Origin: Acidobacteriaceae bacterium
GTDB taxonomy: Bacteria; Acidobacteriota; Terriglobia; Terriglobales; Acidobacteriaceae
Direction of reading: 5' to 3'
DNA: 36,964 bases
Assembly (NCBI GenBank): GCA_003165005.1
Contig: PLSB01000323.1
Location: 1 to 36,964, forward strand
Part shown: positions 3,336 to 32,994 of the stretch, piece after piece
Position numbering within the stretch: the first letter of the stretch is position 1
Layout of the letters: each line of letters opens with the position of its first letter
Position numbers and translations under genes: made by a program
Notes under the pieces: generated by a model
The model's database searches: none
Seen by the model: only the letters and a program-made list of their open reading frames with translations
What the model was told of the DNA's origin: nothing

Positions 3336-4334
3336 ATGGCAACCGTCTCAGCTTCCCCCTCGCCAGAAACCGTCCGTGTCGTTCCGGGCCCCCTGACCGC
3401 CGCAGTTCCTGAAACAGCCGCCCCCGCCGAGTCGCAAGCAGTCCCCAAATGGCGGCATATTCGCATGGGCCGCGCCGCCGCCGTCAGCGACGGCTTGAGC
3501 TGGCCTATGGTCGCCTTGATGGTGCTCTTTCACGTGGGCGCCATCGCCGCGCTCTTCCTTTTCAGTTGGCAGCGCCTGGTCGTCATGGCCGTGCTTTACG
3601 TGCTGGCCATCAACGTGGGCATTGGCATGTGCTATCACCGCTTGCTCACGCATCGTGGCTACCGCGTGCCCAAGTGGCTCGAATATGTCATGACTGTGTT
3701 CGCTACGCTCTCGCTTGAGGGCGGGCCCATCTTCTGGGTTTCCACGCATCGCGTGCATCACCAGCTCAGCGACAAGGAAGGCGATCCGCACACGCCGCGC
3801 GAAGGCGGCTGGTGGGCGCACGCGGGATGGATCCTCTTCGGACAGTCGTTGCACACGCAAATCAAGGCGCTCTCGCGCTATTCGCCCGACCTCAGCCGCG
3901 ACCGCTTCCATGTGTGGATGAGCAAATACCACTGGGTGCCGATCACTCTCAGCGCCATTCTGCTGTTCACCCTCGGATGGGTCTGGGGCGGTTTTGTGAA
4001 CGGCGTCGCCATGTTCCTTTGGGGAGCTCTGCTGCGTGTCACGCTCGGCCTGCACGCCACGTGGCTGGTGAACTCGGCAACCCACATGTGGGGCAGCCGC
4101 CGCTTTCAAACCCATGACGACTCGCGCAACAACTGGTGGGTCGCGCTGCTCACCGGCGGCGAAGGCTGGCACAACAACCATCACGCGCATCCGGTTTCCG
4201 CGCGCCACGGCCTCAAGTGGTACGAGATCGATCCCAACTTCTGGGGCATCTGGCTGCTGGCCAAGCTCGGCCTCGCGCGCAGAGTCCAGGTGGCCAAGTT
4301 CGATCCCAAGAATCCCAAGCCCGCGGGGCTGTGA
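3336..4334 (+). CDS. Acyl-CoA/fatty acid desaturase (delta-9 type, membrane di-iron)
   Basis: Three His boxes: HRLLTHR, HRVHH, HNNHH; multiple hydrophobic segments. Confidence 0.93.
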   Translation: MATVSASPSPETVRVVPGPLTAAVPETAAPAESQAVPKWRHIRMGRAAAVSDGLSWPMVALMVLFHVGAIAALFLFSWQRLVVMAVLYVLAINVGIGMCYHRLLTHRGYRVPKWLEYVMTVFATLSLEGGPIFWVSTHRVHHQLSDKEGDPHTPREGGWWAHAGWILFGQSLHTQIKALSRYSPDLSRDRFHVWMSKYHWVPITLSAILLFTLGWVWGGFVNGVAMFLWGALLRVTLGLHATWLVNSATHMWGSRRFQTHDDSRNNWWVALLTGGEGWHNNHHAHPVSARHGLKWYEIDPNFWGIWLLAKLGLARRVQVAKFDPKNPKPAGL

Positions 4335-11164: not shown

Positions 11165-11767
11165 ATGGAGCAGCCGGGATCGAAGGATTCCAACGTGTCC
11201 CCGTCCGGTATCACAGCGCTGCTGCGCGATTGGCAGGCAGGCCGCCATGCGGCATTGAATGAACTGTTCGAGGCCGTCTACCCTGAGCTGCACCGCATCG
11301 CCCGGCGATACAGCGGCCGCGAGAGGATCTCCTCCACACTGCAATGCACGGCAGTGGTTCATGAGGCATGGCTGAGGCTGGCGCAGTCGCAGCGGGTGAG
11401 CCTGAAAGACCGCGCGCACTTTTTCGCTTTCTCAGCGCGGTTGATGCGCACCATCCTGATCGATTACGCGCGTGCCCGCAAGAGCAAGAAGCGGGGCGGC
11501 GGAGAAACAATCTTCTCCCTGATGGATTCCGATGCCGCGGTCAATCCATCCGATGTCGAAATCCTGGATTTGAATGGCGCGCTCGAAGAACTGGAGAAGC
11601 TCGATCCGGTGCAAGGCCAGATTGTGGAGATGCGCTATTTCAGCGGCCTCAGCATTCCCGAGACCGCCGAGGCTTTGGGCGTATCGGAAAGCACCGTCAA
11701 GCGGGAGTGGATCGTCGCCAAGACCTGGATCCGCAGGCGCCTGATGGAGAGCGGGAAAGAACGGTGA
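11165..11767 (+). CDS. ECF-subfamily RNA polymerase sigma factor (TIGR02999-like)
   Basis: LHRIARRYSGRERISSTLQCTAVVHEAWLRLAQ; region 4 IVEMRYFSGLSIPETAEALGVSESTVKREWIVAKTWIRRRL. Confidence 0.93.
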   Translation: MEQPGSKDSNVSPSGITALLRDWQAGRHAALNELFEAVYPELHRIARRYSGRERISSTLQCTAVVHEAWLRLAQSQRVSLKDRAHFFAFSARLMRTILIDYARARKSKKRGGGETIFSLMDSDAAVNPSDVEILDLNGALEELEKLDPVQGQIVEMRYFSGLSIPETAEALGVSESTVKREWIVAKTWIRRRLMESGKER

Positions 11768-14700
11768 ATCCAGAGGGCTGGAAGCGCGCAAAGAAGCTGT
11801 TCTCGGCAGCTCTGGCGCTGCCGGAGGCCGAACGGGAGGCGTTTCTCGCCGCACAGCAGGATGAGCGGGAGACTCTCGACGAGGTACGCTCGCTGCTGAC
11901 TGCGTATCGGGATTCTCCCGATTTTCTTGAGAACGCCGCTCCAAATCTGCCCGCGGACCCGCAGGCGCGCGACACCGCGACGCCCTTTGCCGGACGGCGC
12001 GTCGGGGCGTGGGAACTGGTGCGCGAGATCGGCCAGGGCGGCATGGGCGTGGTGTGGGAGGCGCGCCGCGCCGACCAGCAGTATGAGCAACGCGCGGCGG
12101 TGAAGCTGCTGCGCGCCAGCCTGTTTTCCGAGCAGGATGCCCGGCGTTTCCGCGAAGAGCGGCAGATCCTGGCTTCGTTGAATCATCCCTCGATTGCGCG
12201 GCTGCTCGACGGAGGCATGCTTGAAGACGGCGAGCCCTATCTGGTGATGGAGTTTATCGACGGGCTTCCGCTCGACGGCTGGTGCGAGCTTCATCGATCG
12301 AACCTGCGGCAGCGTATCGAGATCTGTCTCGAGATTTGCTCCGCGGTCGAATTCGCGCACCGCCAACTGGTGATTCATCGCGATTTGAAACCGGCGAATA
12401 TTCTTGTCGGCGCCGGCGGCACGCCCAAGCTGCTGGATTTTGGCATCGCAAAACTTGTGGCTGAAGGGGGAAGCTACCGCACCACAACCAACCTGCTAAC
12501 CCCCGAATGCGCCAGTCCGGAGCAGGCGCGAGGGGAGCGGATGTCGACGGCCAGCGATCAGTTTTCGCTGGGCGTGCTGCTGTATCAATTGCTGACCGGA
12601 CGGCATCCTTTCGCCAAGCCGGATGCGAGCCCGATCGAGGCTTTGCGCGCCATCTGCGAGGATGAACCCCGGCTGCCCAGCAGCGTGGCGGAGAACTGGA
12701 GCCGCGAATTGCGCGGCGAGCTCGACGCAATTCTTCTGCAGACGCTTAACAAGAATCCTGCCGCGCGCTATTCCTCGGTGAGCGCCTTCGCCGGCGATCT
12801 TCGCGCCTGGCTCGATGGCCTGCCGGTGAGCGCCGTGCGCCAATCGTGGTGGCGGCGGAGCAGGAAGGTTATCCTCCGCTACAAGGCGCTGAGCGCGGCG
12901 ATTGCGACGGCGGTGCTGATGCTGGTGACGGGCATTGTGGTGACATCGATCGAGGCCAGGCGGGCGTTGCGCGCCGAGCGGGAGGCGCTGTCACAACGCG
13001 ACCGCGCCGAGAGCGCGCAGCAGGCGGCGCAGACGGAACGGGACCGGGCCGTTGCCGCCGAGAAGGCTGCCGTTGGCGCCGAAAAGGCCGCAACCGCGGA
13101 ACGCAACCGCGCCATCAATGAGAGCCAGCGCGCCGATACCGAAGCCAAGAACGCTCACACCATTAACGACTTTCTGGAAAAGGACATCCTTGCCCAGGCC
13201 GACCCGAACACCGAGCCCGATCCTGACTTGAAGGTGCGCACGGCGCTCGACCAAGCGGCTGCCCACATCGAGGGTAAGTTTGAAGATCAGCCTCTCGTCG
13301 AAGCCTCACTTCAACATTCGCTAGGAGTCAGCTATCACGGCCTTGGGTTGTATTCCGAATCGCAGCGCCACACCGAGCGAGCTCTAGCTCTCAGAAGGAA
13401 GTACCTGGGCCTGTATGCCCCTGAAACACTGACAACGACGACGCTCCTTGGGACGATCCTGCTGGATGCATCGGAGTTTGACAAGGCCGAGCCTCTTCTG
13501 CGATCTGCCTATGAAACAAGCCGCAAAGTGTTAGGAGAGAGTGCTCCCGGGACGCTCAGCGCCGAACAGCAGTTGGCCTCCGTCTGGATGCAGCTGGGAA
13601 GAACCACCGACGCTGAACCTCTGCTGAAGCACAACCTGGCGATGCGCCGTCGCGAACTCCCACGCAACGATGCGGCGCTCAACGAGGCCATCGCTCAACT
13701 CGCCGCTCTTTACGAAGCATCGGAACGGCTTGCGGAGGCTGAAACTCTGGCTCGCGAGAGTGTGGAACTTGCGCTGAAGATTCACGGCCCCGAACATCCC
13801 GTCACGCTCTTCTCGCAGTACGTTCTCGCGTCTACCTTGCAGTCAGAAAATAAGCTTGAACAGGCAGAGCGTATCTATCTTGAAGTGCTGGAAACAAGAA
13901 AGCGAGTGTTGGGGCTGGATCATCCGGATACGCTTGACACGATGTACAATCTGGCCTGCTTGTATCAACTAATGGGAAGATACGAGGAAGCCATCCGTCT
14001 GCTCAACACTCATCTTGCGGCAACGAAACTTAAATTTGGGGAAGAGAACCCTAGGATATTGAACCCTTTCTACAGCCTCGGCTATGCCTATATTCAGATA
14101 GGCAAATTCGCAGAGGCTGAACCATTTCTTAATAAGGTTCTGGAAACGGATAGGCGCTTGAACGGAGAGAATCATCAGGGTTCATTAGCACTTCTCGCCA
14201 TCCAGCGGCTGGGGATTCTCTATCGTTATCAGGGACGGTACGCGGCTGCGGAACCTCTGGCGCGCGGGGCCGCGGCGGAACTCCAGAAGATGTTTGGACT
14301 CGATCACTCGTATGCCGTCAGCGCACTGACCTCATGGGGAGTGCTTCTTCAGGATGAAGGGAAGGACATGGAGGCTGAGACGACCCTTTCTAAGGCCCTC
14401 GAACTGAATCGCAAGAATCTGACTCCCGGGTATTCCACTACACGATCCTGCCTGTTCGCACTTTCAAGGTTGCGCCTCAAGCAGGGACGGGATGCGGATG
14501 CGGAGAAGTTGCTCCGCGAGGCAATCGAAATCACGAACGAGCATGGGTATCCAATCTGGGATCGCTTCGATGGGCAAAGCCTGCTCGGCGCGGCTCTGCT
14601 CGGCCAGGGAAAATACGCTGAGGCCGAGCCGCTGCTGATTTCGGGCTACGAAGGACTCCAAGAGCTGAGTCCCGCGATCTCCGTCGAGGCCAATCTGCCC

Positions 14701-14796
14701 GAGGCGGGCGAAAGGATTGTGCGGCTCTATACGGCCTGGGGCCAGCCGGAGAAGGCCGCCGAGTGGCGTCAAAGGCTGCAGGACCCCGAAAAGTAG
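11764..14796 (+). CDS. Ser/Thr protein kinase with TM segment and TPR repeats
   Basis: GQGGMGVVWEA, HRDLKPANIL, LLDFGIAKL; TM KALSAAIATAVLMLVTGIVVTSI; C-terminal TPRs. GTG start overlaps sigma stop (GTGA). Confidence 0.93.
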   Translation: MNPEGWKRAKKLFSAALALPEAEREAFLAAQQDERETLDEVRSLLTAYRDSPDFLENAAPNLPADPQARDTATPFAGRRVGAWELVREIGQGGMGVVWEARRADQQYEQRAAVKLLRASLFSEQDARRFREERQILASLNHPSIARLLDGGMLEDGEPYLVMEFIDGLPLDGWCELHRSNLRQRIEICLEICSAVEFAHRQLVIHRDLKPANILVGAGGTPKLLDFGIAKLVAEGGSYRTTTNLLTPECASPEQARGERMSTASDQFSLGVLLYQLLTGRHPFAKPDASPIEALRAICEDEPRLPSSVAENWSRELRGELDAILLQTLNKNPAARYSSVSAFAGDLRAWLDGLPVSAVRQSWWRRSRKVILRYKALSAAIATAVLMLVTGIVVTSIEARRALRAEREALSQRDRAESAQQAAQTERDRAVAAEKAAVGAEKAATAERNRAINESQRADTEAKNAHTINDFLEKDILAQADPNTEPDPDLKVRTALDQAAAHIEGKFEDQPLVEASLQHSLGVSYHGLGLYSESQRHTERALALRRKYLGLYAPETLTTTTLLGTILLDASEFDKAEPLLRSAYETSRKVLGESAPGTLSAEQQLASVWMQLGRTTDAEPLLKHNLAMRRRELPRNDAALNEAIAQLAALYEASERLAEAETLARESVELALKIHGPEHPVTLFSQYVLASTLQSENKLEQAERIYLEVLETRKRVLGLDHPDTLDTMYNLACLYQLMGRYEEAIRLLNTHLAATKLKFGEENPRILNPFYSLGYAYIQIGKFAEAEPFLNKVLETDRRLNGENHQGSLALLAIQRLGILYRYQGRYAAAEPLARGAAAELQKMFGLDHSYAVSALTSWGVLLQDEGKDMEAETTLSKALELNRKNLTPGYSTTRSCLFALSRLRLKQGRDADAEKLLREAIEITNEHGYPIWDRFDGQSLLGAALLGQGKYAEAEPLLISGYEGLQELSPAISVEANLPEAGERIVRLYTAWGQPEKAAEWRQRLQDPEK

Positions 14797-14881
14797 AAGC
14801 TGTATATTCCTCGCTTACAGCGTATTTCTCCGCTCTTCCTGCCAACGCCTCGATTCATCTCTAAGGAAATTCGGGATTTCG

Positions 14882-14910
14882 TGAACTGGTTTTTCCTGCG
14901 TTTCCGCTTA
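14882..14910 (+). promoter_or_regulatory. Candidate ECF-type promoter (TGAACT-17 bp-CGCTTA)
   Basis: TGAACTGGTTTTTCCTGCGTTTCCGCTTA; ungapped match (7 mismatches in 29 by eye) to 17362-17390. Confidence 0.45.
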
Positions 14911-15033
14911 TCCATGTTGAAGCGGCGGATTCCGCGCGAAGGCGATTCCGGATCCCCTCCCGCGCAGAGCCGGAAGGGGACGCGTACACGATGGCGCGCG
15001 GCGCATCGGCAACCGCTCCTGCAAGGAGAAACG

Positions 15034-17187
15034 ATGAAACACCAACGAATTGCCATTCTGGCCGTCATGCTGGCGGCCTTTGGAATCGCCGCGATTCCCG
15101 TCGAATCGGGCGCGCAGAGCAGTACCGGCCGCAAGGCGCGCGTGGCCGTTCTGGACTTCGACTACGGCACCGTGATGAGCTCCACTTCTTCGATGTTCGG
15201 GACCAATGTCGATATCGGCAAAGGCATCTCGCAGTTGCTGGTCACCGATCTGGTGAAGAACGGGACCTTTTCGGTCATCGAACGCTCCGCTTTGGATAAG
15301 GTTCTGGCCGAGCAGAACTTCTCGAACTCCAATCGCGCCGATCCGGCATCGGCAGCTCGCATCGGCAAGGTCCTTGGCGTGGATTACGTGATTGTCGGAA
15401 CCATTACCGAGTTCGGTAACGAGACCAATAAACAGAATGCCGGCGGCGGTGGCGGCAATTTTCACGGCTTCGGGCTAGGCGGCGTCGGCCACTCCAACTC
15501 CAAAGCCAATGTGGTCATTGACGCTCGGGTCATCAACATCGACACCGCGGAGATTCTCGCCGTGGCCGAGGGCAAGGGCGAGTCCAGCCGCTCCGGGGTT
15601 TCGTTGCTCGGTGGCGGCGGTAACTGGAACGGGTTTGGCAGTGGCAACGTCGATTTCGGCTCCAGTAACTTCCAGAACACGATCATCGGAGAAGCCACCA
15701 AGAAGGCCGTGGACAATCTGGCCGGGGATCTGGCCGCGAATTCCGGCCGCTTGAGCGCAAACGTGCACACCTTCAAAGGCGAAGGGTTGATCGCCGCCAT
15801 CGATGGCGGTCAGATTATTCTCAACGTCGGCGGCAAGGCCGGCATCAAGGCGGGCGACACGATCGAGGTCACCCGCGTGACCCGCGAGATCAAGGATCCC
15901 GCCACCGGGCAGGTATTGCGCCGTCTTACCACCAGCGTTGGAACCCTCCGGGCCACGGACGTGGATGACGCCTCGGCCATTTGTGCGCCCGTCACGGGAT
16001 CGGGTTTCCAGGAAGGCGATCACGTCACCTTTACCACCGACCATCCGGTTCCGGCAGTGAGCGGCGGGGCCTCGCCCGCCGCCAGCCAGAATTCGCAGGC
16101 CCAGGGCTCGTCGTCGACGACGCCGGGCGCTTCCAGCAACTCTCAGGCTTCCCCTTCCACCTCACCCGCGGCCGGCCAGGGCGCCAGCGGCGGCGGCCAG
16201 CCCAACTTCACCGCCATCAAGGCCGAATTTATTCCCGGCGAAAAGACCATCTTCTTTGACGATTTCAGCGACATGGCGGGCGATGAGCCGCCGCCGCATT
16301 GGAAGATTCGCGGCGCTGCACCCGAACTGCGCGTGGCCGGGAACACCCGCGAACTGGTGCTCATCGGCAATCGATACAGCATCTACCCCAACATCACCGG
16401 CCTGCCCAAGAACTTCACCATGGAGATGGACCTGTCCTGCGAAAAAGGTGAGGTCGATGACGTTAACGGATGCGGATCTATCAACTGGTACTTTCACGAC
16501 AAAACCGGAAAAGTGGAATTACTCAAGATATGGGTAGGAATGGACAGAGGCACCGAGGATAAGAAAAGTATTGAATGGCGCCTCGGTTTATGGACCGACA
16601 AGGAGGCGCTGGGCGAGAAGGATCTCACAACGGACTGGAAACAGCCGGTGAAACTCGCCATGTGGGTACAGAACGGCCGCATCCGCTTCTATGTCAATGG
16701 CGATCGCGTCTTCGATTTCAACCAGGTAGAGTTGGGCGACATCGCCTCGCTGCAGATAGATTTCTGGAGCCACGACACAACGATGGCCATCCGCCGCGCC
16801 CGCTTTGCCGAGTCCACGCCCGACTTTGGGCAAACGATCATGGCATCGGGCAAGTTCGTCACCCACGGCATTCTCTTCGATACCGACAGCGACCGGGTGA
16901 AGCCCGAGTCGGCGGCGGTGCTGCAGATGATCGCGCGCGTGCTGACCACGACGCCCGACCTGAACGTGGAGATCGACGGCCACACCGACGCGACCGGCAA
17001 TGCGGCGCACAACATGGATCTTTCCAAGCGCCGCGCCGAGGCCGTGAAGAACATTCTGGTGTCGCAGTTCAGCATCGACGCCGGCCGCCTGACCACCGCG
17101 GGCTTTGGCGCAACCAAGCCCATCGACACCAACGACACCGCGGCCGGCAAGGCAAACAATCGCCGCGTGGAGTTTGTGCGCAAGTGA
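15034..17187 (+). CDS. Exported protein: CsgG-like domain, LamG/concanavalin-like region, C-terminal OmpA domain
   Basis: Signal peptide; VLDFDYG..ISQLLVTDLVKNGTFSVIERSALDKVLAEQ (CsgG); INWYFHDKTG..FYVNGDRVFDFNQ (LamG-like); LNVEIDGHTDATGNAAHNMDLSKRRAEAVKN (OmpA); RBS AAGGAG. Confidence 0.9.
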   Translation: MKHQRIAILAVMLAAFGIAAIPVESGAQSSTGRKARVAVLDFDYGTVMSSTSSMFGTNVDIGKGISQLLVTDLVKNGTFSVIERSALDKVLAEQNFSNSNRADPASAARIGKVLGVDYVIVGTITEFGNETNKQNAGGGGGNFHGFGLGGVGHSNSKANVVIDARVINIDTAEILAVAEGKGESSRSGVSLLGGGGNWNGFGSGNVDFGSSNFQNTIIGEATKKAVDNLAGDLAANSGRLSANVHTFKGEGLIAAIDGGQIILNVGGKAGIKAGDTIEVTRVTREIKDPATGQVLRRLTTSVGTLRATDVDDASAICAPVTGSGFQEGDHVTFTTDHPVPAVSGGASPAASQNSQAQGSSSTTPGASSNSQASPSTSPAAGQGASGGGQPNFTAIKAEFIPGEKTIFFDDFSDMAGDEPPPHWKIRGAAPELRVAGNTRELVLIGNRYSIYPNITGLPKNFTMEMDLSCEKGEVDDVNGCGSINWYFHDKTGKVELLKIWVGMDRGTEDKKSIEWRLGLWTDKEALGEKDLTTDWKQPVKLAMWVQNGRIRFYVNGDRVFDFNQVELGDIASLQIDFWSHDTTMAIRRARFAESTPDFGQTIMASGKFVTHGILFDTDSDRVKPESAAVLQMIARVLTTTPDLNVEIDGHTDATGNAAHNMDLSKRRAEAVKNILVSQFSIDAGRLTTAGFGATKPIDTNDTAAGKANNRRVEFVRK

Positions 17188-17285
17188 GTGTCGTCGACGG
17201 CTTGATCGGCCCGTTAAGCGCCGTGGCGCAGAATGTCAACCAGGGGCTCTAACCGCGCGAACTCGCCTTTTTGCCTGCGCGGTTT

Positions 17286-17324
17286 CCCATCCTTTCGCCC
17301 TCAAAACGGGCGAAAGGGTGGGGC
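17286..17324. repeat. REP-like palindrome copy 3 (CCCATCCTTTCGCCC-loop-GGGCGAAAGGGTGGGG)
   Basis: Long inverted repeat of the same family as 321-360 and 402-441. Confidence 0.75.
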
Positions 17325-17361
17325 ACGGGGAGTCCTTATTCAAGCGATCGGAAAACTAAAT

Positions 17362-17390
17362 TGACCCGATTTTCCTCCCGTTTCCGCTTA
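17362..17390 (+). promoter_or_regulatory. Candidate ECF-type promoter (TGACCC-17 bp-CGCTTA)
   Basis: TGACCCGATTTTCCTCCCGTTTCCGCTTA; paired with 14882-14910. Confidence 0.45.
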
Positions 17391-17515
17391 GACACAGTAG
17401 AGCCAATCGGGAATTCATGCAGCAAGCAGGATTGTTTCCCCGGATGCCGCTCCTTCCAGGGGCAAGGTTTTCGGAAACATCCATCCTTCCTGCGTGAGTT
17501 ACCGATCCTCTGAAA

Positions 17516-17538
17516 GCCGGAGCGCGCATAGCTCCGGC
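17516..17538 (+). promoter_or_regulatory. 5'-leader hairpin GCCGGAGC-GCGCATA-GCTCCGGC
   Basis: Perfect 8-bp stem ~50 bp upstream of the giant ORF start. Confidence 0.4.
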
Positions 17539-17591
17539 CCTCAGTGCGCTCGAGTCGCGCCCGCCCCCGGCGCAATCGGAAAGGAATCGCC

Positions 17592-20500
17592 ATGGATCTC
17601 CGCTCTCACTTTGCCTCTTCGAAGTTTTTCGCTGTTCATCCGGCTGCCGCCATGAGCCTGAACCGGCTCCGGGCGCTCGCAGTTCTGGCCGTAATCTTCT
17701 CGCTCGCCCTGGTGGCCAATGCGCAGTCCGCGCATTACGGCGGGCAGGCCGACGCGGTAGCGACGCAACTTGCTTCACCGCAGTCGCTGGCCGTCGATGG
17801 CCTGGGCAACGTGTTTGTTTCGAGCTCCGTGGACGCGTCAGGTTATCCCGCAGGGGTCTACAAGGTGGAGGCCGTCAACGGCCGGGTCTCGAGTTCCTCG
17901 ACGATGGTTCAGATCGCATCGGCCTACGGAAGTCTGGCCGTGGACGCACAGAACAACCTCTACATCGCCGTCGCAAGCACTCCCACCATCTATAAATATG
18001 CGGCCGTCGGCGGCGAGGTGACCGCGAGTTCGTCCATGACCGTGGTCAGCAGCAACGATTTCACTGCGCCCACGGCGCTGGCCGTCGACAGCAACGGCTA
18101 CCTGATCGTCGTCGACCAGAACAGACACGTTTACCGGCTCGCCCCCAACGACAGCAGCAAGATTCAACTGGGCGCCAGCTACCTTGATGGTCACTGGATC
18201 GTCGGCGTGGCAGTCGATGGCGCCAACAACGTCTACGTGGCCGATTTGAGCTGGGGCGTCGTCGATGAGATCGAGTCCGTGGATGGCGCAGTCTCAGGCA
18301 GTTCATCCATCTGGGATATTGCCTGGCCCAATGGCGCGCTTACGGCCGTAGCGGCAGACACCAAAGGCGATGTCTTCTTCGGAGATAATCCCACTGCCGG
18401 GACGGGAGAGGTTCAGGAGATTCCGGCCGGCTCCACAAATCCCGAAGTCGTCTACAGCAGCTACACGGCTCCCAGCCTTCCTGTCGCGCTGGCGACGGGC
18501 CTGCACGGAGAGATTTACATCGCCGACATTGCCAACGGGTCGATTGTGAATCCGCCGGTGCGCATCGTCCTGGCCACTCCGCCGGATTTCGGCGAGGTAA
18601 CTGTCGGCCAGACCAGCAGCGCGAATCTTCCTTTCACCTTCGATTCCACAACCTCGCTGGGCAGCACCATCGAGAGCGTACTCGGGCAGGGAGTCAGCGG
18701 GCAGGAGTTCATCTACCAGGCGCAAAGCGATACCTCTTATTGCCAGGCAGGTCAAACCTACCAGACCGGCCAGAGTTGCCTGATCGCGGTCCAATTCTCG
18801 CCGCAGTATCCGGGGCTGCGGCTGGGCGCGGCGGAATTGCTGGACTCGAGCGGCAACATCCTGGCCAGCGTGCCTCTGCAAGGCACCGGCGTTGCCTCCC
18901 AACTTTCATACCTCACCTTCACCCCGCCGACCACCCTTTATCGCCAAATCGTGGGCCAGCCTACCGGCGTGGCCGTCGATTCCCATGGCAATGTGTTTTA
19001 CAGCGATGCGGATCGAGGCATGATCCTTGAACTGGTGGGCGCCAGCGGTCCGCCTGTAACGATCGCCAGTCTTGGTACTTACAGCTGTCCCGATGCTCTG
19101 GCCTTCGACGGCGGCGGCAACCTGTTTATGGCAGATTATTGCAGCCACACCGTCTGGGAGATCCAGGCCAACACCAACGGCCAGATCTCCTCGACTTCCA
19201 ACGTCATTAACTTGAGCAGCGTCGTGAGTTATTCTAACGGCTTCAGCGGCTTCGCCGAGCCGTGGGGTGTGGCCGTCGATGGCGCCGGAAATGCCTTCGT
19301 CACCGATGCCAATTCCACCGGCGTAGGCATGGTCTACGAGGTCGTGGCCGACAGTAACGGCCACGTCAACACCAACTCGTCCGTGGTGCAAATCGCGACG
19401 GGCTTCAATCAGCCGCAGGGCCTGGCTCGGGATGCGAATGGAGATCTCTTCCTGGCCGACACGCACAACCTTGTGGTGAAGGAGATCGTGGCCGTGAATG
19501 GGCAGGTCTCGGCAAGCTCCCAGGTGGTGACCGTCGGCAGCGGCTTCCTCTTTCCCACCAGCGTCGCCGTCGATGCCGCCGGCAACGTCTATGTGACCGA
19601 CGACGACAGCGGCGACAACTCCATGGTGAAGGTCATTCTGGCCTCGAATGGCGCGGTCTCGGCCAGCTCCCCGGTCCTCACGCTGACCAACGGCCTCATA
19701 GAGCCCTGGGGAATCACGGTCGATGCCAGCGGCAATCTCTTCTTTACCAATTGGACCTACGCCTCGGTGCAGGAACTGCCCTTCGGCACTGAGCCCACGC
19801 AGATCGCCTTTAATACGGCCACGGCGGTGGGGTCGCTGGATGCGACCGACGATCCGCAGAGTCTTACGCTGGCCAACATCGGCAACGCCGCGCGCAACTT
19901 CGACTCGGCGGCCTCGATCCAGGGAGGAGATTTTCTCTTCGATAGCGCCACAACCTGCTCGCAGTCGGGCGCGTACACGCTCGATCCCGGCAGTTCCTGC
20001 ACGCTGGCCATCGACTTTCAGCCTTCGGCTTCGGGCCCACTCTCGGACACGCTTACCCTTGGCGACAGCTCCCTGCCCGCAATCACGCTCAACGGCACCG
20101 GCACCACGCAGCCCATACTCTCGGTCGCCGCTCTGTACTCGATTGGCTACGTCCAGGCCGGCGCCACGACCTCCACTTTGCTGTCGGTCTCAAACGTCGG
20201 TGGCGCGCCGCTGACGATCGCTTCCATCACGCACACCTCCGGCGCATCCGACTTCAGCCTCGGCGCGGGAGGAAACTGCCCTATCGGCTCCGCCATCGCG
20301 GCAAACACGAGCTGCGCCGTGGAGATCGATTACTCCCCGGCTGCCGGCTTCACCGGCGCTGAATCGGCCGTCTTCACCATCACCAGCGATGGCGGAACAA
20401 AGAACTTTACCGTCAGCGCCTATTCGCTGCTTTCGATGACGCAGCCGGCGGTCGTGGTCTCTTCCACTTCGCTGGACTTCGGCGCGAGGATAATCGGCGC

Positions 20501-23500: not shown

Positions 23501-26114
23501 CACGCTGAATACCACCCTGCAGACGTTCCCGGTTGGCAACCTTCCCATGGATGTAGCAGTCAGCGCCGATGACAGCCGCCTCTATGTCTCCAATTACAAC
23601 GACCATACAGTCTCGGTTTTCAACACCGCAGGCGACGCGAATACTCTCGTCGGAACCATCACCCTGTCGTACGCGCCACAGGGCCTGGCCATGCAGCCCG
23701 GCAGCGCTTACCTCTGGGTATTGCTGCCGGACGCCGGCGAGGCTGTCATTTTCAATACAGCCGGCGACGCCAACTCCATCGTGAACACCATCGCTGTGAG
23801 TGGAAAGCCCGGCCAGCTCGGATCGTTCTTCTCGACAGTCGCGACAGCAACCGTCCGGCACACCCCCATCATTAACTGGTCTGCTCCGGCGGCAATCACT
23901 TATGGCACGGCGCTCGACAACACGCAATTGAACGCCACGGCCACTTACAACGGATCGACGGTTGACGGAACGTTCACCTATACTCCGGCGGCAGGCACAG
24001 TGTTGAACGCCGGCGCCAACCAGACACTCTCAGTGACCTTCACGCCGACGGACGCCACCGACTACAACGCGGCGACAGGATCGGTGAGCCTGACGGTGAA
24101 CAAGGCGACGCCGACGGTCAACTGGTATGCGCCGGCGGCAATCACTTATGGCACGGCGCTCGACAACACGCAACTGAACGCCACGGCCACTTACAACGGA
24201 TCGACGGTTGACGGAACCTTCGCCTACACGCCGGCCTCTGGCACGGTGTTGAACGCTGGGGCTAACCAAACACTCTCGGTCGCCTTCACGCCGACGGACG
24301 CCACCGACTACAACGCGGCAAACGGAACAGTAAGTCTCACGGTGAGCAAGGCGACGCCGACGGTCAACTGGTCTGCTCCGGCAGCGATTACTTACGGCAC
24401 GGCGCTGAGCAGCGCACAGTTGAATGCCACAGCGAGCTACAACGGATCGACGGTCGCGGGAACCTTCGCCTACTCGCCAGCCTCGGGCACGGTGCTGAAC
24501 GCCGGGGCCAACCAGACACTCTCGGTAACCTTTACGCCGACCGACACAACTGACTACACCACGGCAAACGGAACAGTAAGTCTCACGGTGAGCAAGGCGA
24601 CGCCGACGGTCAACTGGTCTGCGCCGCCGGCGATTACTTACGGCACGGCGCTGAGCAGCACGCAACTGAACGCCACGGCCACTTACAACGGAGCGGCGGT
24701 CGCGGGAACCTTCGCCTACACGCCGGCCTCTGGCACGGTGCTGAACGCGGGGGCCAACCAGACACTTTCGGTCACCTTCACGCCGACAGACACGACCGAT
24801 TACAACACAGCGACAGGATCGGTGAGCCTGACTGTCAACAAGGCGACACCGACGGTCAACTGGACCGCGCCGGCGGCAATCACTTACGGAGCCGCGCTCA
24901 GCAGCACGCAACTGAACGCCACGGCCACTTACAGCGGGTTGAGCGTCGCAGGAGCCTTCACTTATACGCCGGCCTCAGGCACGGTGCTGAACGCCGGCGC
25001 CAACCAAACACTCTCGGTCACCTTCACGCCGACGGACACGACCGACTACACCACGGCACACGGATCGGTGAGCCTGACAGTGAGCGCATTCACTCCAACG
25101 GTGACAGTGACGCCTGGAGCAACCAGCATCACCATCGCACAGGCACTGGCGGTGACCGTGTCGGTGAGCGGGGCAACGGGCGGTTCATCGCCAAGCGGAA
25201 GCGTGATTTTGACGGGCGGCAGCTATACGTCGCCGGCAGTGGCGCTGACGGGCGGAAGTGCGACGTTCAACATACCGGCCAGCACATTGGCCGCGGGCAA
25301 TTACACCTTCAAGGCCAGCTACACACCAGACGCGAGCAGCTCATCGAATTACAACAGTGGCTCAGGGACGGCTTTGACGGCGGTGTCGGTGAATGGCCTG
25401 CAGCCGATCATCGCCGGCCTGCTGCCGGCATTTACCACCGCGGACGGGCCGGCCTTTACGCTGACCGTAACGGGAACCGGATTTGTCTCCGGCTCGACGG
25501 TTTACTGGGGCACTACCGCGCTCACAACGACGTTCGGAAGTTCTACACAGCTAACCGCTCAGGTGCAGGCAGTAGACATCTCCGCTGCGGGCATTACATC
25601 GATCACCGTGCAAACGCCAGCGCCCGGTGGTGGCACTTCCAACGTATTCGAGTTCGAGGTCGATTCGGGCGGGGCGGGAACCAAGCCAACCTTCACGGTC
25701 GTGTCGGATACAGTAACGCCAGGCTCCTCGGCATCCTACCGGGTAACGCTGCCTTCTTCAGCCACGAATGTGAGCGTCCAGTGCCTGGGTCTGCCCAGCG
25801 GCGCAGCCTGCAGCTATTCGGCCGCAACCGGCACACTGACGATCTCAACCTCCACGACGACACCGGCGGGCACCTACCAGATCGTTGTCGTCGTTACCGA
25901 GACGCTGCCTGGCACATCTACATCCTGGATCTTTTTGCCGATTCTGCTGCTGCCGTTGGCGAGGATGCGCAGGAAATGGGCCAAACAGCAAATATGGCTG
26001 ATGCTGTGCCTGGCAATTGCGCTGGCTGCCGCCGCTACGACGATTGGCTGCGGAGGCTCGTCGCAATCGCACACGGTCACCAGTTCGGGAACCGTAACCC
26101 TTGTTGTCCAATAG
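17592..26114 (+). CDS. Giant (~2840 aa) exported protein: NHL propeller, choice-of-anchor-D type domains, YVTN propeller repeats, tandem Ig-like (MBG-type) repeats, IPT/TIG domain, C-terminal hydrophobic segments
   Basis: Signal peptide; recurring GVAVDGAGNVYVAD units; VSVIDGATNTVSATV units; five WSAPAAITYGTAL..LNATATYNG repeats; IAGLLPAFTTADGPAFTLTVTGTGF TIG motif. Confidence 0.93.
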   Translation: MDLRSHFASSKFFAVHPAAAMSLNRLRALAVLAVIFSLALVANAQSAHYGGQADAVATQLASPQSLAVDGLGNVFVSSSVDASGYPAGVYKVEAVNGRVSSSSTMVQIASAYGSLAVDAQNNLYIAVASTPTIYKYAAVGGEVTASSSMTVVSSNDFTAPTALAVDSNGYLIVVDQNRHVYRLAPNDSSKIQLGASYLDGHWIVGVAVDGANNVYVADLSWGVVDEIESVDGAVSGSSSIWDIAWPNGALTAVAADTKGDVFFGDNPTAGTGEVQEIPAGSTNPEVVYSSYTAPSLPVALATGLHGEIYIADIANGSIVNPPVRIVLATPPDFGEVTVGQTSSANLPFTFDSTTSLGSTIESVLGQGVSGQEFIYQAQSDTSYCQAGQTYQTGQSCLIAVQFSPQYPGLRLGAAELLDSSGNILASVPLQGTGVASQLSYLTFTPPTTLYRQIVGQPTGVAVDSHGNVFYSDADRGMILELVGASGPPVTIASLGTYSCPDALAFDGGGNLFMADYCSHTVWEIQANTNGQISSTSNVINLSSVVSYSNGFSGFAEPWGVAVDGAGNAFVTDANSTGVGMVYEVVADSNGHVNTNSSVVQIATGFNQPQGLARDANGDLFLADTHNLVVKEIVAVNGQVSASSQVVTVGSGFLFPTSVAVDAAGNVYVTDDDSGDNSMVKVILASNGAVSASSPVLTLTNGLIEPWGITVDASGNLFFTNWTYASVQELPFGTEPTQIAFNTATAVGSLDATDDPQSLTLANIGNAARNFDSAASIQGGDFLFDSATTCSQSGAYTLDPGSSCTLAIDFQPSASGPLSDTLTLGDSSLPAITLNGTGTTQPILSVAALYSIGYVQAGATTSTLLSVSNVGGAPLTIASITHTSGASDFSLGAGGNCPIGSAIAANTSCAVEIDYSPAAGFTGAESAVFTITSDGGTKNFTVSAYSLLSMTQPAVVVSSTSLDFGARIIGAEAAKWDRGTPLTQLTLTLTNEGAGTLQFSDLTTTTGVEDFYWQYETTSAVSSNTCVSTKHYGTSELTTGQSCTIQYAFLPWLNGARQGNLHIGSNAVSGDLNVTLTGVGVLPAGVLAVIPQQGFSFSGGGKLATIDPTLHKVFAISGGYFTEVDTNTLAYNSLSLGSQESPNQMALDATAGTIYGGANGGFFTINEAAGTWNFTPELYEYYYDIAVNPATNKAYLTDYGSNIGIVDGNAGNAYSAIHGSGATYLFSTSSVAVDSTSNLAYVLDNYVGKIAVVSGGTLQTPFIAGLPTQGSLLTFNPVSNKLYTNGSSTALTVIDGATHAVSSIAGIDTTAVTVNPVTNRVYATNFPAVWSSWAQTATIAVIDGSSQAVLANVPVGQASSGAEAIAIDTVSNEVYVSNGDDGGVSNSVSVIDGATNTVSATVATDYDPGAIVVDEANHHAFVLNERLLPQGNPTGSIFVIASPKEDGPTVAPAIAASFGTGMIGVNSTTSLNFTITNPNSSYTLSSVGFQALLPSGLQAAAGTTAACGGALTTGSDGTITLAGAMITPGGQCTVSLTVTGAAAGTYTLTSGAVAAWPSLTGNTASATLTVGSSPIVIGTVTAYGLPLAGVTITYQADTSSYQSGATVTDNNGNYSFAVTAGWSGTITPSLTGYTFTPGNNWIPAVTTSATQSFTAVIIPPEVITGSTIGSASTTIASGGAVADQGGATVTARGVCYSTAANPAITDSCTSDGTGAGAFTSTLTGLALNTTYHVRAYATSAAGTFYGSDLQFTTMTPSASSVAGAYAYITGGISNAVNVIDTASQRVLGTVVLNPAGPLFYGDICPNGVASSSSSGKIYVAAVCVNSISAIDSSTLSVADYIQVPITTGGSTMSAVTSLDGSLVYLSDEEGPGPSAGNIHVINTSTDAISSFQIGKASYDLKLHPDGNRLYATNTDDSTVTAVDLTTATVTATINTGQEPFGMVINNAGTRAYTANHGDNTVSVIDVASGSPTLNTTLQTFPVGNLPMDVAVSADDSRLYVSNYNDHTVSVFNTAGDANTLVGTITLSYAPQGLAMQPGSAYLWVLLPDAGEAVIFNTAGDANSIVNTIAVSGKPGQLGSFFSTVATATVRHTPIINWSAPAAITYGTALDNTQLNATATYNGSTVDGTFTYTPAAGTVLNAGANQTLSVTFTPTDATDYNAATGSVSLTVNKATPTVNWYAPAAITYGTALDNTQLNATATYNGSTVDGTFAYTPASGTVLNAGANQTLSVAFTPTDATDYNAANGTVSLTVSKATPTVNWSAPAAITYGTALSSAQLNATASYNGSTVAGTFAYSPASGTVLNAGANQTLSVTFTPTDTTDYTTANGTVSLTVSKATPTVNWSAPPAITYGTALSSTQLNATATYNGAAVAGTFAYTPASGTVLNAGANQTLSVTFTPTDTTDYNTATGSVSLTVNKATPTVNWTAPAAITYGAALSSTQLNATATYSGLSVAGAFTYTPASGTVLNAGANQTLSVTFTPTDTTDYTTAHGSVSLTVSAFTPTVTVTPGATSITIAQALAVTVSVSGATGGSSPSGSVILTGGSYTSPAVALTGGSATFNIPASTLAAGNYTFKASYTPDASSSSNYNSGSGTALTAVSVNGLQPIIAGLLPAFTTADGPAFTLTVTGTGFVSGSTVYWGTTALTTTFGSSTQLTAQVQAVDISAAGITSITVQTPAPGGGTSNVFEFEVDSGGAGTKPTFTVVSDTVTPGSSASYRVTLPSSATNVSVQCLGLPSGAACSYSAATGTLTISTSTTTPAGTYQIVVVVTETLPGTSTSWIFLPILLLPLARMRRKWAKQQIWLMLCLAIALAAAATTIGCGGSSQSHTVTSSGTVTLVVQ
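23877..25092 (+). repeat. Five tandem copies of a 246-bp (82-aa) Ig-like module
   Basis: Equivalent TGG codons at 23877, 24123, 24369, 24615 and 24861: exact 246-bp period. Confidence 0.95.
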
Positions 26115-27684: not shown

Positions 27685-29031
27685 TCACTCGTCCAGAGCC
27701 TTCAAGGACTTTTCGTGTTTAGATTCCTTGGGTTTGGGTGACTGTTTGGCGCCGTTGCCTGGCGGCTCGGTGGGCGGGCTCGTCTGCGGCGGCTGGGTGG
27801 GAGTTGCAGCGGCGGGAGGCGGCGCGGGCGGAGTAACGGCAACGGGAACAGGGGGCGGAGCTGGCACGGGTTGGGGTTGGATCACCGGCGGTTGCGGAGG
27901 GTTGTTGCCGTCGACATTCTGCGCAGGGCGCCGGGCCATGCCGGCGACGACGCCGATGCCGACAGAAAGAAAAACAAAGGCCACGGCCGCCGCGATCTTC
28001 CAGTTGGCTTTCAGCCAGGGCGCCAAGCCGGACAATCGGAAAACCGGTGCGGCAGCAGGAAGGTTGGCTGCCGGAGCAAAACCGGAAACCGTTTGGGGCG
28101 CGGCCATGTTGGGCATCTCACCGGGAGTAAACTGATGGCCGGCGGTGCCCATCTCCTTGACAGCGCCGGCGCCGACCAGATCCACCACGTCCTTCTTGGC
28201 GATGGTGAGGTTGCCGGAAGCGGTTGCCAGCGCGGCGGCAAAGGCGTCGCAAGATTGGTAGCGATCGTCGGGGGCCTTGGCCATGGCTGTGCGCAGGACC
28301 TGTTCGACGGCCGGAGGCGCGTTACAGCCCATCTCGCGCAGGGCGGGCAAGGGATCGCGCAGATGGGCTTTCATCAACTCGAATTCGCTCTGGCTCTGAA
28401 AGGGCAGGCGGTTGCAGAGCATCTCGAAGAGCACCACGCCGAGCGAATAGATATCGCTGCGCGGGTCGGCGGGCTTGCCTTCGATGCGCTCCGGCGAGAT
28501 GTATTCAATGGTGCCGATGAGGCGGCCTTCGGTGGTCATGCGCGGAGCCGCGACCATGCGCGAGATGCCGAAGTCCATTACCTTGATGGTGCCCCAGGTG
28601 GTGAGCATGATATTGGCCGGCTTGATGTCGCGATGCACGATGCCCATCTCGTGGGCGGGCTCAATAGCTTCCAGGATCTTCGCGGCCAGGGGAACAGCAA
28701 TCTGCCAGGGCAGCGCGCCGCGCTCGCGCTCGATGTTCTCCAGGGTCTTGCCGGGCACATACTCCATCACCATGAAGAAGTTCTCCCCCTGCTGGGTGAA
28801 GCTGTACAGGGTGGCGATCCCGGAGTGATTGAGCTTGGCGACGGTGATGGCCTCGGAGCGGAAGCGGTCAAGCAGATTGGGCTGGCGGGCAATCTCCGGG
28901 CGCAGCATTTTGATGGCGACTTCGCGCTCGATCATGGTGTCGACGGCCTTGTAGACCACGCCCATGCCGCCCTCGCCCAGTTCATCCACGATCCTGTACT
29001 GGCCAACCATCGAACCGATCATATCCGCCAT
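27685..29031 (-). CDS. Transmembrane Ser/Thr protein kinase, Pro-rich C-terminus
   Basis: LGEGGMGVVYKA, HRDIKPANIM, MDFGIS; TM WKIAAAVAFVFLSVGIGVVAGMA. Confidence 0.94.
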   Translation of the reverse strand: MADMIGSMVGQYRIVDELGEGGMGVVYKAVDTMIEREVAIKMLRPEIARQPNLLDRFRSEAITVAKLNHSGIATLYSFTQQGENFFMVMEYVPGKTLENIERERGALPWQIAVPLAAKILEAIEPAHEMGIVHRDIKPANIMLTTWGTIKVMDFGISRMVAAPRMTTEGRLIGTIEYISPERIEGKPADPRSDIYSLGVVLFEMLCNRLPFQSQSEFELMKAHLRDPLPALREMGCNAPPAVEQVLRTAMAKAPDDRYQSCDAFAAALATASGNLTIAKKDVVDLVGAGAVKEMGTAGHQFTPGEMPNMAAPQTVSGFAPAANLPAAAPVFRLSGLAPWLKANWKIAAAVAFVFLSVGIGVVAGMARRPAQNVDGNNPPQPPVIQPQPVPAPPPVPVAVTPPAPPPAAATPTQPPQTSPPTEPPGNGAKQSPKPKESKHEKSLKALDE

Positions 29032-29085
29032 GGTGAGTTGCCCTCGTTCCGCCGATCTAAATCTCTGGTTTATGGCTTTCAACTG

Positions 29086-29922
29086 TCAGTTTTTGTTGTC
29101 CAACGGCCGCAACTCGGCAATCGCTACAGAGATATTGTCGCCTCCGCCGCGCTCGCGCGCAATGTCGACAAGCTGCCGGCAGGCGTTCAAGGGCGATTGG
29201 ATGGCCGCAACCCGGCCAATCTCTTCGTCTTCGATCTCGCCGTACAGACCGTCCGAGCAGAGGAGAAAACGGTCGCCGGCCAGCAAATGCATGGGCTCCG
29301 TCCAGGTGGAAATCTCGACTTGCTCGCGGCCCCCCAGCGAGCGGGTAATGACGTTCTTGTCGGGATGATGGCGCGCCTGCTCCATCGTGATCTGGCCCAA
29401 GGTGACCAGTTCCATGACCGCGGAGTGGTCCTCGCTCAACTGGTAGATGCCGCCGTTACGGATGAGATAGAGCCGGCTGTCGCCCACGTGGGCGGAGTAG
29501 CCCAAGCCGTCCTGCAACAGAAGCGCCGTGCATGTGGTTCCCATGCCACGCTCCGAGGCCTCCTCGAGGGACTGCTTGTGAATCGAGGCGTTGGCCTCGA
29601 GGAAGGCATTTTTCAGGTGTGCGGCGGGTTCGCTGCGCATTTTGGCAAAGGCGTTTTCCAGGGTTGCGATGGCGGCGGCGCTGGCCACTTCGCCGGCATT
29701 GTGCCCGCCCATGCCGTCGGCAACCACAAGCAGAACGCGATCGCCGCGGCTGTTGTTGCGTTCGCGCAGAATGCTGACGCAGTCTTCGTTGTGTTCGCGC
29801 ACACAGCCCACGTCGGAGAGGAACTCGGCTTCGATGAGAAAGCGCGGAGGGACAAGTTCGGCAGGCGGCTGAGGCGTCGCGGCAGGCGCGGGTGTGGAAC
29901 GGAAGCGATCGAAGAAACTCAT
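29086..29922 (-). CDS. PP2C-family Ser/Thr protein phosphatase
   Basis: DVGCVREHNEDC, VADGMGGHNAGEVAS, HVGDSRLYLIRNG, LCSDGLYGEIEDEEI, GGDNISVAI. Confidence 0.95.
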   Translation of the reverse strand: MSFFDRFRSTPAPAATPQPPAELVPPRFLIEAEFLSDVGCVREHNEDCVSILRERNNSRGDRVLLVVADGMGGHNAGEVASAAAIATLENAFAKMRSEPAAHLKNAFLEANASIHKQSLEEASERGMGTTCTALLLQDGLGYSAHVGDSRLYLIRNGGIYQLSEDHSAVMELVTLGQITMEQARHHPDKNVITRSLGGREQVEISTWTEPMHLLAGDRFLLCSDGLYGEIEDEEIGRVAAIQSPLNACRQLVDIARERGGGDNISVAIAELRPLDNKN

Positions 29923-31184
29923 GGCTGGGGTGCGCTCCTTTGCATGGTAAAGACAAATTCCGCGCGTTCGCCGATGTCGAACTGCACGGGCAGATCGGAG
30001 AAGCCCGGCTGGCGCAGAGTGAGAGTGACGGAAGTACCGAGGCCGCGGGTGAGCGCAAAGGGCGTTTGCCCCAGAAGCTTGTTTCCTTCCCAGACTTCCG
30101 CGCTGCCCTCAACCACATCGACAATCACCTGCCGGGACTCGGCCGTGCTGGTAGCAGGCGGGGGACTGGGCGGGGGCAGGTTGCCATGCGCAGCGTGCGG
30201 AGGGGGCTTGGGGAGAAAGAGCAGAACGGCGGCCAGAATCAAGAGCGCGGCCGCGACCCCGGCGGCGCTCCGCTTCAGGCGCCGGGAGGGGAGCAAGCCA
30301 TCGAGCAGGGAGGCCAGTGCGCCGGCAGCCGGCAAGGCCAGACGCCAGCCGGAGCCGGGACCGGCCGCGAGCGGGATCCGCTCCAGGTCCTGCTTGACGG
30401 CCAGCATGGAGGGGTAGCGATCCTGAGGCTTGCGGCGTAGGCAGCGAGCGATGATATGCTCCATCTCCGTGGGGATGCCGGGCTTCAGAACCGTGGGCGG
30501 GGTGTAGGTTGCCCGCATGATTTTGGAGAACAATTCCATCTGCGTGGAACCCTCGAAGGGGAGGGTGCTGGTGAGCATCTCGTAGGCCAGCACGCCGAAG
30601 GACCAGATGTCGCTGGCGGGGACGGCCTGCTCGCCGCGGGCCTGTTCGGGCGAGATGCTCTGAAAGCTGCCGATGACAAAGCCGGCCGTGGTGAGGCGCG
30701 CAACCATCTGGTGGGTGGCAATGCCGAAATCGAGCAGCTTCAATTCGCCTTTCGAGTTGATCTTCAGATTCGCGCTCTTGAGGTCGCGATGCACGATGCC
30801 TTGCGCATGAATGTACTCGAGCGTGGTGGCGCAGGAGCAGAAGATGGGCACGGCATCCTCAATCTTCCAGGGGCCGCGGGCGGCTGTGATCTCTTGAATG
30901 GTCTGGCCGTCAACGTATTCCATGACGATCACCGGCTTGCCCTGAAATTCGATGAACTCATAGAAGGCGGCTACGCCCGGATGATGCAGGTTGGCCTGGA
31001 TACGGGCCTCGTTGAGGAAGCGCTGGACGAGGACGGATTCCCCCCCGCTGAAGTTGAGAATCTTGATGGCTACGGTATGGCCCAACAAGGTATGGACCGC
31101 ACGGTAAACCTGCCCCATGCCGCCTTCACCGAGATAGCCGGTAACCTGGTAGTCACCGATGACGGCATTGAGGTACGGAGGCAT
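29919..31184 (-). CDS. Ser/Thr protein kinase with TM segment and C-terminal PEGA-like domain
   Basis: LGEGGMGQVYRA, HRDLKSANLK, LDFGIA; C-terminal SAEVWEGNKLLGQTPFALTRGLGTSVTLTLRQPGF; stop overlaps the PP2C start. Confidence 0.93.
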   Translation of the reverse strand: MPPYLNAVIGDYQVTGYLGEGGMGQVYRAVHTLLGHTVAIKILNFSGGESVLVQRFLNEARIQANLHHPGVAAFYEFIEFQGKPVIVMEYVDGQTIQEITAARGPWKIEDAVPIFCSCATTLEYIHAQGIVHRDLKSANLKINSKGELKLLDFGIATHQMVARLTTAGFVIGSFQSISPEQARGEQAVPASDIWSFGVLAYEMLTSTLPFEGSTQMELFSKIMRATYTPPTVLKPGIPTEMEHIIARCLRRKPQDRYPSMLAVKQDLERIPLAAGPGSGWRLALPAAGALASLLDGLLPSRRLKRSAAGVAAALLILAAVLLFLPKPPPHAAHGNLPPPSPPPATSTAESRQVIVDVVEGSAEVWEGNKLLGQTPFALTRGLGTSVTLTLRQPGFSDLPVQFDIGERAEFVFTMQRSAPQP

Positions 31185-31203
31185 CGTGCGGTCCTGCCCA
31201 TCG

Positions 31204-32994
31204 TTACTTCGTCTGGGTTACTCCCATCAGTTCCATGCCGTAGCGGATGGGCACGGCGAAGGTAATGGTGGTGTTGCCTTGTGATTTCATGGCGGTGAAG
31301 ATGCCGATCACCTTGCCGTTTTCGTCAAAGACGGGCCCGCCGCTGTTGCCGGCGCCGGTGGTGTTGACCGCCAGTTGGTAGTAGTCGCCAAAGGTGCTGT
31401 AGATCGCGTTGTCGGGGCTGTTGTTGGCGCCATTGCGGATTACTCGGCCCACGTTGCCGTCGCTGACGGTCGGACTGGGAATGGTGTCCTCCACGGTGCC
31501 CTGGGCGAAGACGTCCTTGGAGCCAACTACCTGCACGATCTGCGGCGCGACACCGGGATAGCCCATCACCACCACCCTGGCGCCAGGCTGTATGGTGTCG
31601 TAGTTGTCGTTCAAGTCCACTTTGCGCAGCGCGGTGGGCAGTTCGATCTTGAGCATGGAGACATCGACGGCATCGGAACTGCGCGCTACTTGGGCGGGAA
31701 TGCGGATGCGGTTGCCCGCCAGGGTCACGTTCAATACGTTGTTATGGCCCTGCACCTGATTCGGGAAACCGATGGAGTCCTGGATCACGTGGAGATTGTC
31801 CAGGCTGAGCTTGCCCTCAATCACCAGCTTGGCCTGCGCGGGAACCCAGGTGGGGAACGAACTTGCCGCGATCCCCCGGAGCTGCAATTGATTGCCGCTG
31901 GGAACCAGCAGGATGCCGGCCTGGTCGTTATGCACCGTCCAGCCTTCATAACTGGTATTCCAGCCCTCGCCCACGTGGCGGTTGGTGAGGATAAATCCGT
32001 CGCTGCTGACGATGAGGCCGCTGCCGGACCCAGTCTCGCCAATGGGCACATAGTCACCGCCGCCGTCGTCGGTGGAGAGGACCGGTTCGACCTTCCCGTT
32101 CAATTGCAGGAAAAGGGGCAGCAAGTTGGCGCCGCCTTGCACAATAGGAACGGTCTTCTTCTTGTTCTTGGGGTCGGGCTGGGAGTTGGCAAGGTAGACC
32201 TGGCTGAGCGGACGGCTGGTTTTGGCGTCCAGCAGATTCCAGGAGAGCTCAATATAGACCACCGACGGCGTGTTCGCGGATGCAATCTGCGCCGAACTCA
32301 GTTTGTTGTTGACGGGGTTGGGGTTAACGTAAACGGTCCCCTGCTTGGGCCGGGTGAGGAAGTAAGCGGTCACGCCGCCGATGACGGCCAGCAGCACCAG
32401 TGATACGACCACCATCTGGGTGCGGCCTTCCTTCTTGGTCTGCGAGATCATGCGCTCCACCGTGGCCTTGCCCACCGTGGTGCTGCCATAGGCGACCGGT
32501 GCGGCGGCCATGGGCGGAGGCGGCGGGATGAACTGGGCCGGCGGGGGCGGCGGGACAGGCTGGTAGGGCGGCGTGGCGGCGGCAACGGGCGAAATGGCTT
32601 CGCGCGTGGGCATGCTGACCGGCGTCTCGGCCAGGCGGGTGGCCTTGGAGAGAATCGGACGGGGATTCAGATCGAACTGAATCTCGGGACCGCCGGCGCC
32701 GAATTGGATGATGTCGCCGGGGGTCAGGCGGGTGGGAGTGTAGATGCGGTGCTTGTTGACGAAGGTGCCGTTGCTGCTGCCCAGATCGTTGAGCGCGATT
32801 TCGCAGGGATCGACCTTCTCGACAACGATGCGGGCGTGTTTGTGGCTGACCAGGTCGTCGCGAGTTTCATCGTAGCGCACGTTGCAATCGGCATCGCGGC
32901 CGATGAGAAACTCTGCATTGCTGGTGGCCGGAAATTCCTCGACCTGGTTTGCCTTGCTTGAATTCTGATGCCGAAGAACGATCTTGACGTCCAT
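31204..32994 (-). CDS. FHA domain - TM - trypsin-like serine protease
   Basis: FLIGRDADCNV..SHKHARIVVE..LNDLGSSNGTFVN (FHA); TM VVVSLVLLAVIGGVTAYFL; ILTNRHV, VDVSMLKIELP, GAGNSGGPVFDENGKVIGI. Confidence 0.93.
   Translation of the reverse strand: MDVKIVLRHQNSSKANQVEEFPATSNAEFLIGRDADCNVRYDETRDDLVSHKHARIVVEKVDPCEIALNDLGSSNGTFVNKHRIYTPTRLTPGDIIQFGAGGPEIQFDLNPRPILSKATRLAETPVSMPTREAISPVAAATPPYQPVPPPPPAQFIPPPPPMAAAPVAYGSTTVGKATVERMISQTKKEGRTQMVVVSLVLLAVIGGVTAYFLTRPKQGTVYVNPNPVNNKLSSAQIASANTPSVVYIELSWNLLDAKTSRPLSQVYLANSQPDPKNKKKTVPIVQGGANLLPLFLQLNGKVEPVLSTDDGGGDYVPIGETGSGSGLIVSSDGFILTNRHVGEGWNTSYEGWTVHNDQAGILLVPSGNQLQLRGIAASSFPTWVPAQAKLVIEGKLSLDNLHVIQDSIGFPNQVQGHNNVLNVTLAGNRIRIPAQVARSSDAVDVSMLKIELPTALRKVDLNDNYDTIQPGARVVVMGYPGVAPQIVQVVGSKDVFAQGTVEDTIPSPTVSDGNVGRVIRNGANNSPDNAIYSTFGDYYQLAVNTTGAGNSGGPVFDENGKVIGIFTAMKSQGNTTITFAVPIRYGMELMGVTQTK

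Follow-up and report, generated by a model that had tools for sequence, protein, structure and literature searches.

Two short and similar sequences each precede a gene for an exported protein on an Acidobacteriaceae contig of 36,964 nucleotides (PLSB01000323.1, here called the window), and a gene for an ECF sigma factor lies further upstream. The window is part of a metagenome-assembled genome (MAG) of 3.9 Mb and 75% completeness. A first-pass annotation proposed that the two sequences are promoters and that the two genes may belong to the regulon of this sigma factor. Are these sequences promoters and, if so, which sigma factor reads them?

A sigma factor-kinase gene pair is followed by two similar sites

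The order of genes and sites is ECF sigma factor, kinase, site 1, csgG-ompA, site 2 and the gene for the NHL/Ig giant (Table 1). The gene at 11165, initially described as an ECF gene, is indeed one and of the TIGR02999 type: its product scores 199 bits against this model (cut-off 126) and is a strong match to PF07638 as well. Ordinary sigma factors have an acidic sigma-2.2 motif; the corresponding residues of the 11165 sigma factor, Q60-C61-T62-A63, are uncharged, and the threonine at the third position is kept in 64 of 65 ECF relatives. The adjoining kinase has a hydrophobic stretch near residues 372-395 and is likely the activator of the sigma factor. Both the CsgG-OmpA fusion and the exported NHL/Ig giant have signal-peptide-like N-termini, and 'surface proteins' is a fair description of the two. 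The giant gene contains repeats at 23886-25081, where several overlapping matches fall on one stretch of a related locus (L082). Two more Ser/Thr kinases and an FHA-trypsin-like protein are encoded at 27688-32994 on the reverse strand, with no motif relation to the sites.

Table 1. Features of the sigma factor-kinase locus in the window
Feature	Position	Strand	Remarks
ECF sigma factor, ECF43-like	11165..11767	+	TIGR02999 / PF07638; QCTA (Thr62) in sigma-2.2, SESTVKREW in sigma-4.2 recognition helix
Receptor-type Ser/Thr kinase, C-terminal TPR repeats	11764..14796	+	start overlaps ECF stop
Promoter site 1 (predicted)	14882..14910	+	-35 TGAACT 14882-14887, T-tract, 17-nt spacer, -10 CGCTTA 14905-14910
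CsgG-OmpA fusion, signal peptide, 717 aa	15034..17187	+	predicted target of site 1
Promoter site 2 (predicted)	17362..17390	+	-35 TGACCC, 17-nt spacer, -10 CGCTTA
Giant exported NHL beta-propeller / Ig-like (choice-of-anchor) protein, 2840 aa	17592..26114	+	predicted target of site 2

Site 1 (TGAACTGGTTTTTCCTGCGTTTCCGCTTA) and site 2 (TGACCCGATTTTCCTCCCGTTTCCGCTTA) align without gaps exactly where the first-pass annotation had placed them, with seven mismatches in 29 positions (4, 6, 8, 13, 15, 16 and 17). Their common 3' run is longer than the ten bases it had counted: it comprises 12 bases, CGTTTCCGCTTA, and this 12-mer has two occurrences in the window, both at the sites. When the two intergenic regions are compared with each other, the highest identity of any ungapped 29-mer is 22/29; in 2000 dinucleotide shuffles of both regions this value averaged 18.2 and never exceeded 21. 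The start codon of csgG-ompA lies 123 nt past site 1 and is preceded by a Shine-Dalgarno-like AAGGAGA at 15023-15029; the giant gene starts 201 nt past site 2. Canonical ECF promoters have AAC in the -35 and CGT in the -10 element; site 1 has AAC and site 2 ACC in the -35 element, both have CGC in the -10 element, and the spacing fits ECF promoters. A scan of 14700-17700 for the sigma-70 consensus gave no match.

Pattern counts in the genome, the genus and the family

The pattern TGAMCY-N17-CGCTTA, suggested earlier for a genome-wide search, has exactly two matches in the MAG, sites 1 and 2, both on the coding strand, but the reversed pattern, which served as control, also has two. Because the control is equally frequent, the bare hexamer pattern is weak evidence on its own. 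The more specific form TGAMCNGNTTTN6CGTTTCCGCTTA matches only sites 1 and 2 in 200 genomes of the family, and its reversed control has no match. Whether the motif occurs at random positions inside genes, named in the first-pass annotation as evidence against promoters, was looked at too, and the promoter reading was not refuted.

In 80 genomes of the genus, a pattern search found 20 matches, five at orthologous loci and 15 elsewhere. Three of these 15 (at L093, L094 and L099) lie about 145-185 bp upstream of a TIGR02999 ECF gene in divergent orientation; with about four such genes per genome, we estimate the chance of this at the order of 1e-6 or less. The TGAACC form of the motif has seven matches beyond the genus in 398 family genomes (not counting G390, which is of the same genus), and no TIGR02999 ECF gene is near any of them. 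This exact form thus appears to be restricted to the genus.

Conservation at orthologous loci

Close relatives of the 11165 sigma factor are encoded in genomes G390 (92% identity; locus L018), G407 (about 70%; L082) and G083 (about 67-68%), as well as at locus L011. Conservation at orthologues, a check proposed at the outset, was found in three related genomes: the site recurs 3' of the orthologous ECF-kinase gene pair at L011:3569 (+), L018:10636 (-) and L082:7158 (-). In G083, no strong site was present in the stretch searched. At L082, the site is directly followed by an orthologue of the NHL giant gene, to which it has 85% nucleotide identity along 3.7 kb; the motif is conserved there and the flanks of the site are not. 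An inverted repeat around site 2, CCCGATT/AATCGGG, was noticed by eye and taken as chance, because the partner arm was not seen in L082.

About 200 bp past the site are 86-89% conserved at L011 and L018, and in both loci other sequence (about 600 bp in L011) parts this leader from csgG-ompA. The L011 arrangement suggests that cargo genes have been exchanged behind a kept promoter. There (L011:3569-4214), promoter and leader are separated from csgG-ompA by a small Cys-rich ORF at about 3724-4059. The site 1 leader was also considered as a structured RNA and as a wider element, and both ideas were rejected: it folds no better than its shuffles (z -0.56), a comparison with Rfam gave no family above threshold, and the only clear match of about 240 bp of leader is in G390 (E 4e-68), with hits in G008 and G012 at chance level. 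No copy of the site is found upstream of the 11165 ECF gene and there is therefore no sign of autoregulation.

A motif discovered beside paralogous sigma factors ranks the two sites first and second

The motif was also sought beside TIGR02999 paralogues. A PWM that includes L112 and L117 is partly circular; this is avoided by a PWM built from the window's clade only. With the latter, a score of at least 14 is reached on the divergent strand in 6 of 60 regions upstream of ECF paralogues, on the opposite strand in none of the 60, and in 0.6% of random windows. EM motif discovery needs no prior motif at all. It was run on 48 non-redundant regions upstream of ECF paralogues, all of them divergent and none from the window's clade, and returned the motif ..TGAg.g.tTTtg.tc.c..TTt.CGCTt with an LLR of 180; shuffles reached 112-115 and random windows 120-150. 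The TGA-to-CGCT distance in this motif equals that of the window sites, and when its PWM was run over 73,867 positions of the window, the two sites ranked first (25.2) and second (21.8), with the next match at 14.4. That third match (14.4 bits; 17423-17452, + strand) is in the leader of the giant gene, 3' of site 2, and may be a weak secondary site or a chance match.

About half of the ECF paralogues have no convincing site. The proteins encoded past the paralogous sites mostly have N-termini that look like signal peptides by eye, and many are large, with NHL, RCC1, FG-GAP, SBBP, Ig-like (Big_3_5, TIG, He_PIG) or pro-kumamolisin domains. At one paralogous locus, motif-like sites flank the ECF gene on both sides (L139:7750, -, and L139:8477, +), one of them divergent and one just past the stop. 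The window's own genome encodes further ECF sigma factors, among them a second, partial TIGR02999 gene (G000:C305:2424-2663; L004:1417-1767). A variant site, TGGTCCGATTTTCCTATAGATTTCGCTT (L004:1958), lies 190 bp from this partial gene in divergent orientation, and the next gene encodes an exported (signal-peptide) protein. L099 is arranged likewise, but its ECF match is longer.

Covariation between the -35 class and the recognition helix of sigma-4.2

In 28 paralogues and the window's clade, 29 cases in all, the -35 element was compared with the residue at position 3 of the aligned segment of the sigma-4.2 recognition helix. This residue is alanine in 10/10 cases with TGAG, glutamate in 7/8 of the TT class and serine in 3/5 with TGA[AC]C (permutation p 5e-5, ignoring relatedness). 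On the tree, TGAG appears in several separate places, and the three -35 classes together need only five changes.

Sites 1 and 2 as probable promoters of the neighbouring sigma factor

On this sequence evidence, sites 1 and 2 are very probably a pair of ECF-type promoters (-35 TGAMC[TC], T-tract, 17-nt spacer, -10 CGCTTA) read by the 11165 sigma factor. Three independent computational findings point to this sigma factor as the reader: the footprint behind the orthologous ECF-kinase pairs, the ranking of the sites as first and second by a motif found de novo beside paralogues, and the covariation of the -35 class with the recognition helix. The originally proposed reading of ECF promoters with a local regulon is thereby well supported computationally. 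The analysis shows the sites themselves, that they are conserved and associated with one sigma-factor family, and that the -35 class covaries with sigma-4.2.

A conserved pair of sites 5' of genes would look alike if the motif were the operator of a DNA-binding regulator and no promoter at all. An operator is improbable, however: the motif is asymmetric and always directed at the target gene, its two blocks keep a fixed -35/-10 spacing, and it adjoins a single sigma-factor family and covaries with sigma-4.2 of that family. Marginally less probable still is that the sites are promoters of another sigma factor of the cell. The further ECF genes of the genome, including the partial TIGR02999 gene, provide candidates, but the site tracks the orthologues of the 11165 sigma factor, and the second TIGR02999 locus has a variant site of its own, TGGTCCGATTTTCCTATAGATTTCGCTT.

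It is highly improbable that the similarity is due to chance or to duplication of a non-functional upstream segment; site 1 could then be, for instance, coding sequence of an extended csgG frame from GTG 14881. The frame is open from 14881, and the leader conservation of about 86-89% in L018 and L011 would fit. Yet a good ribosome-binding site precedes ATG 15034, from which a signal peptide is encoded, and the roughly 600 bp between site and csgG in L011 are other sequence. Moreover, sites 1 and 2 and the L082 site have the motif in common but not its flanks, and the motif is conserved in further relatives.

A likely mechanism and its relation to known systems

In the 11165 sigma factor, QCTA stands in place of the acidic DAED-like patch needed for RNA polymerase binding. 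The adjacent kinase probably senses a signal from the envelope or the outside and phosphorylates Thr62; the sigma factor charged in this way would bind core polymerase, with site 1 serving for transcription of csgG-ompA and site 2 for that of the NHL/Ig giant gene. Transcription from the sites, phosphorylation of Thr62 and the signal are what we infer here.

ECF43 sigma factors act together with Hanks-type kinases in EcfP-PknT of Vibrio parahaemolyticus and EcfK-PknS of Xanthomonas citri (PMC13147305, PMC8999054, PMC8103513), and the activating phosphorylation is proposed to fall on a threonine in sigma-2.2 (PMC13147305, PMC8103513). As in these systems, a kinase gene adjoins the sigma factor gene, no anti-sigma factor is seen next to it, and sigma-2.2 is uncharged with a conserved threonine (consensus QTTA in ECF43, QCTA here). 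The assignment as ECF43-like is based on the TIGR02999/PF07638 matches, the adjoining kinase and QCTA. The outputs differ: a CsgG-OmpA fusion and NHL/Ig giants are proposed here, whereas the known systems control polymyxin resistance or type VI secretion. The -35 element of the window's clade is TGA[AC]C; the literature searched contained no ECF43 promoter motif for comparison. With canonical ECF promoters the sites share the two-block layout, the AAC of site 1, the T-tract after the -35 element and comparable spacing; they differ in the -10 element, CGCTTA or CGCTTT, and the paralogues have the -35 variants TGACC, TGAG and TTAC. The predicted promoter class and regulon are new; the kind of system is already known.

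Implications

The kinase-linked TIGR02999 sigma factors of the genus may form many parallel modules of kinase, sigma factor and surface protein, a model to which we give about even chances. Each sigma factor would have a private promoter variant, with the -35 element set by one sigma-4.2 residue (Ser: TGA[AC]C; Ala: TGAG; Glu: TT[AG]C), and would drive the gene for an exported protein next to it, in many cases a beta-propeller/Ig giant; the cargo would be exchangeable behind the retained promoter. Of greater interest than the promoter pair itself is this wider picture, in which every exported protein would have its own kinase-linked sigma factor and the -35 element could be read as a code. The genus has many kinase-activated ECF sigma factors, and descriptions of their targets and promoters were not found in the literature searched. 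A readable motif whose -35 element apparently follows one helix residue would allow regulons to be predicted from sequence. For the giant secreted beta-propeller/Ig proteins of these soil bacteria, it would provide a first functional context: expression that responds to the environment through a kinase.
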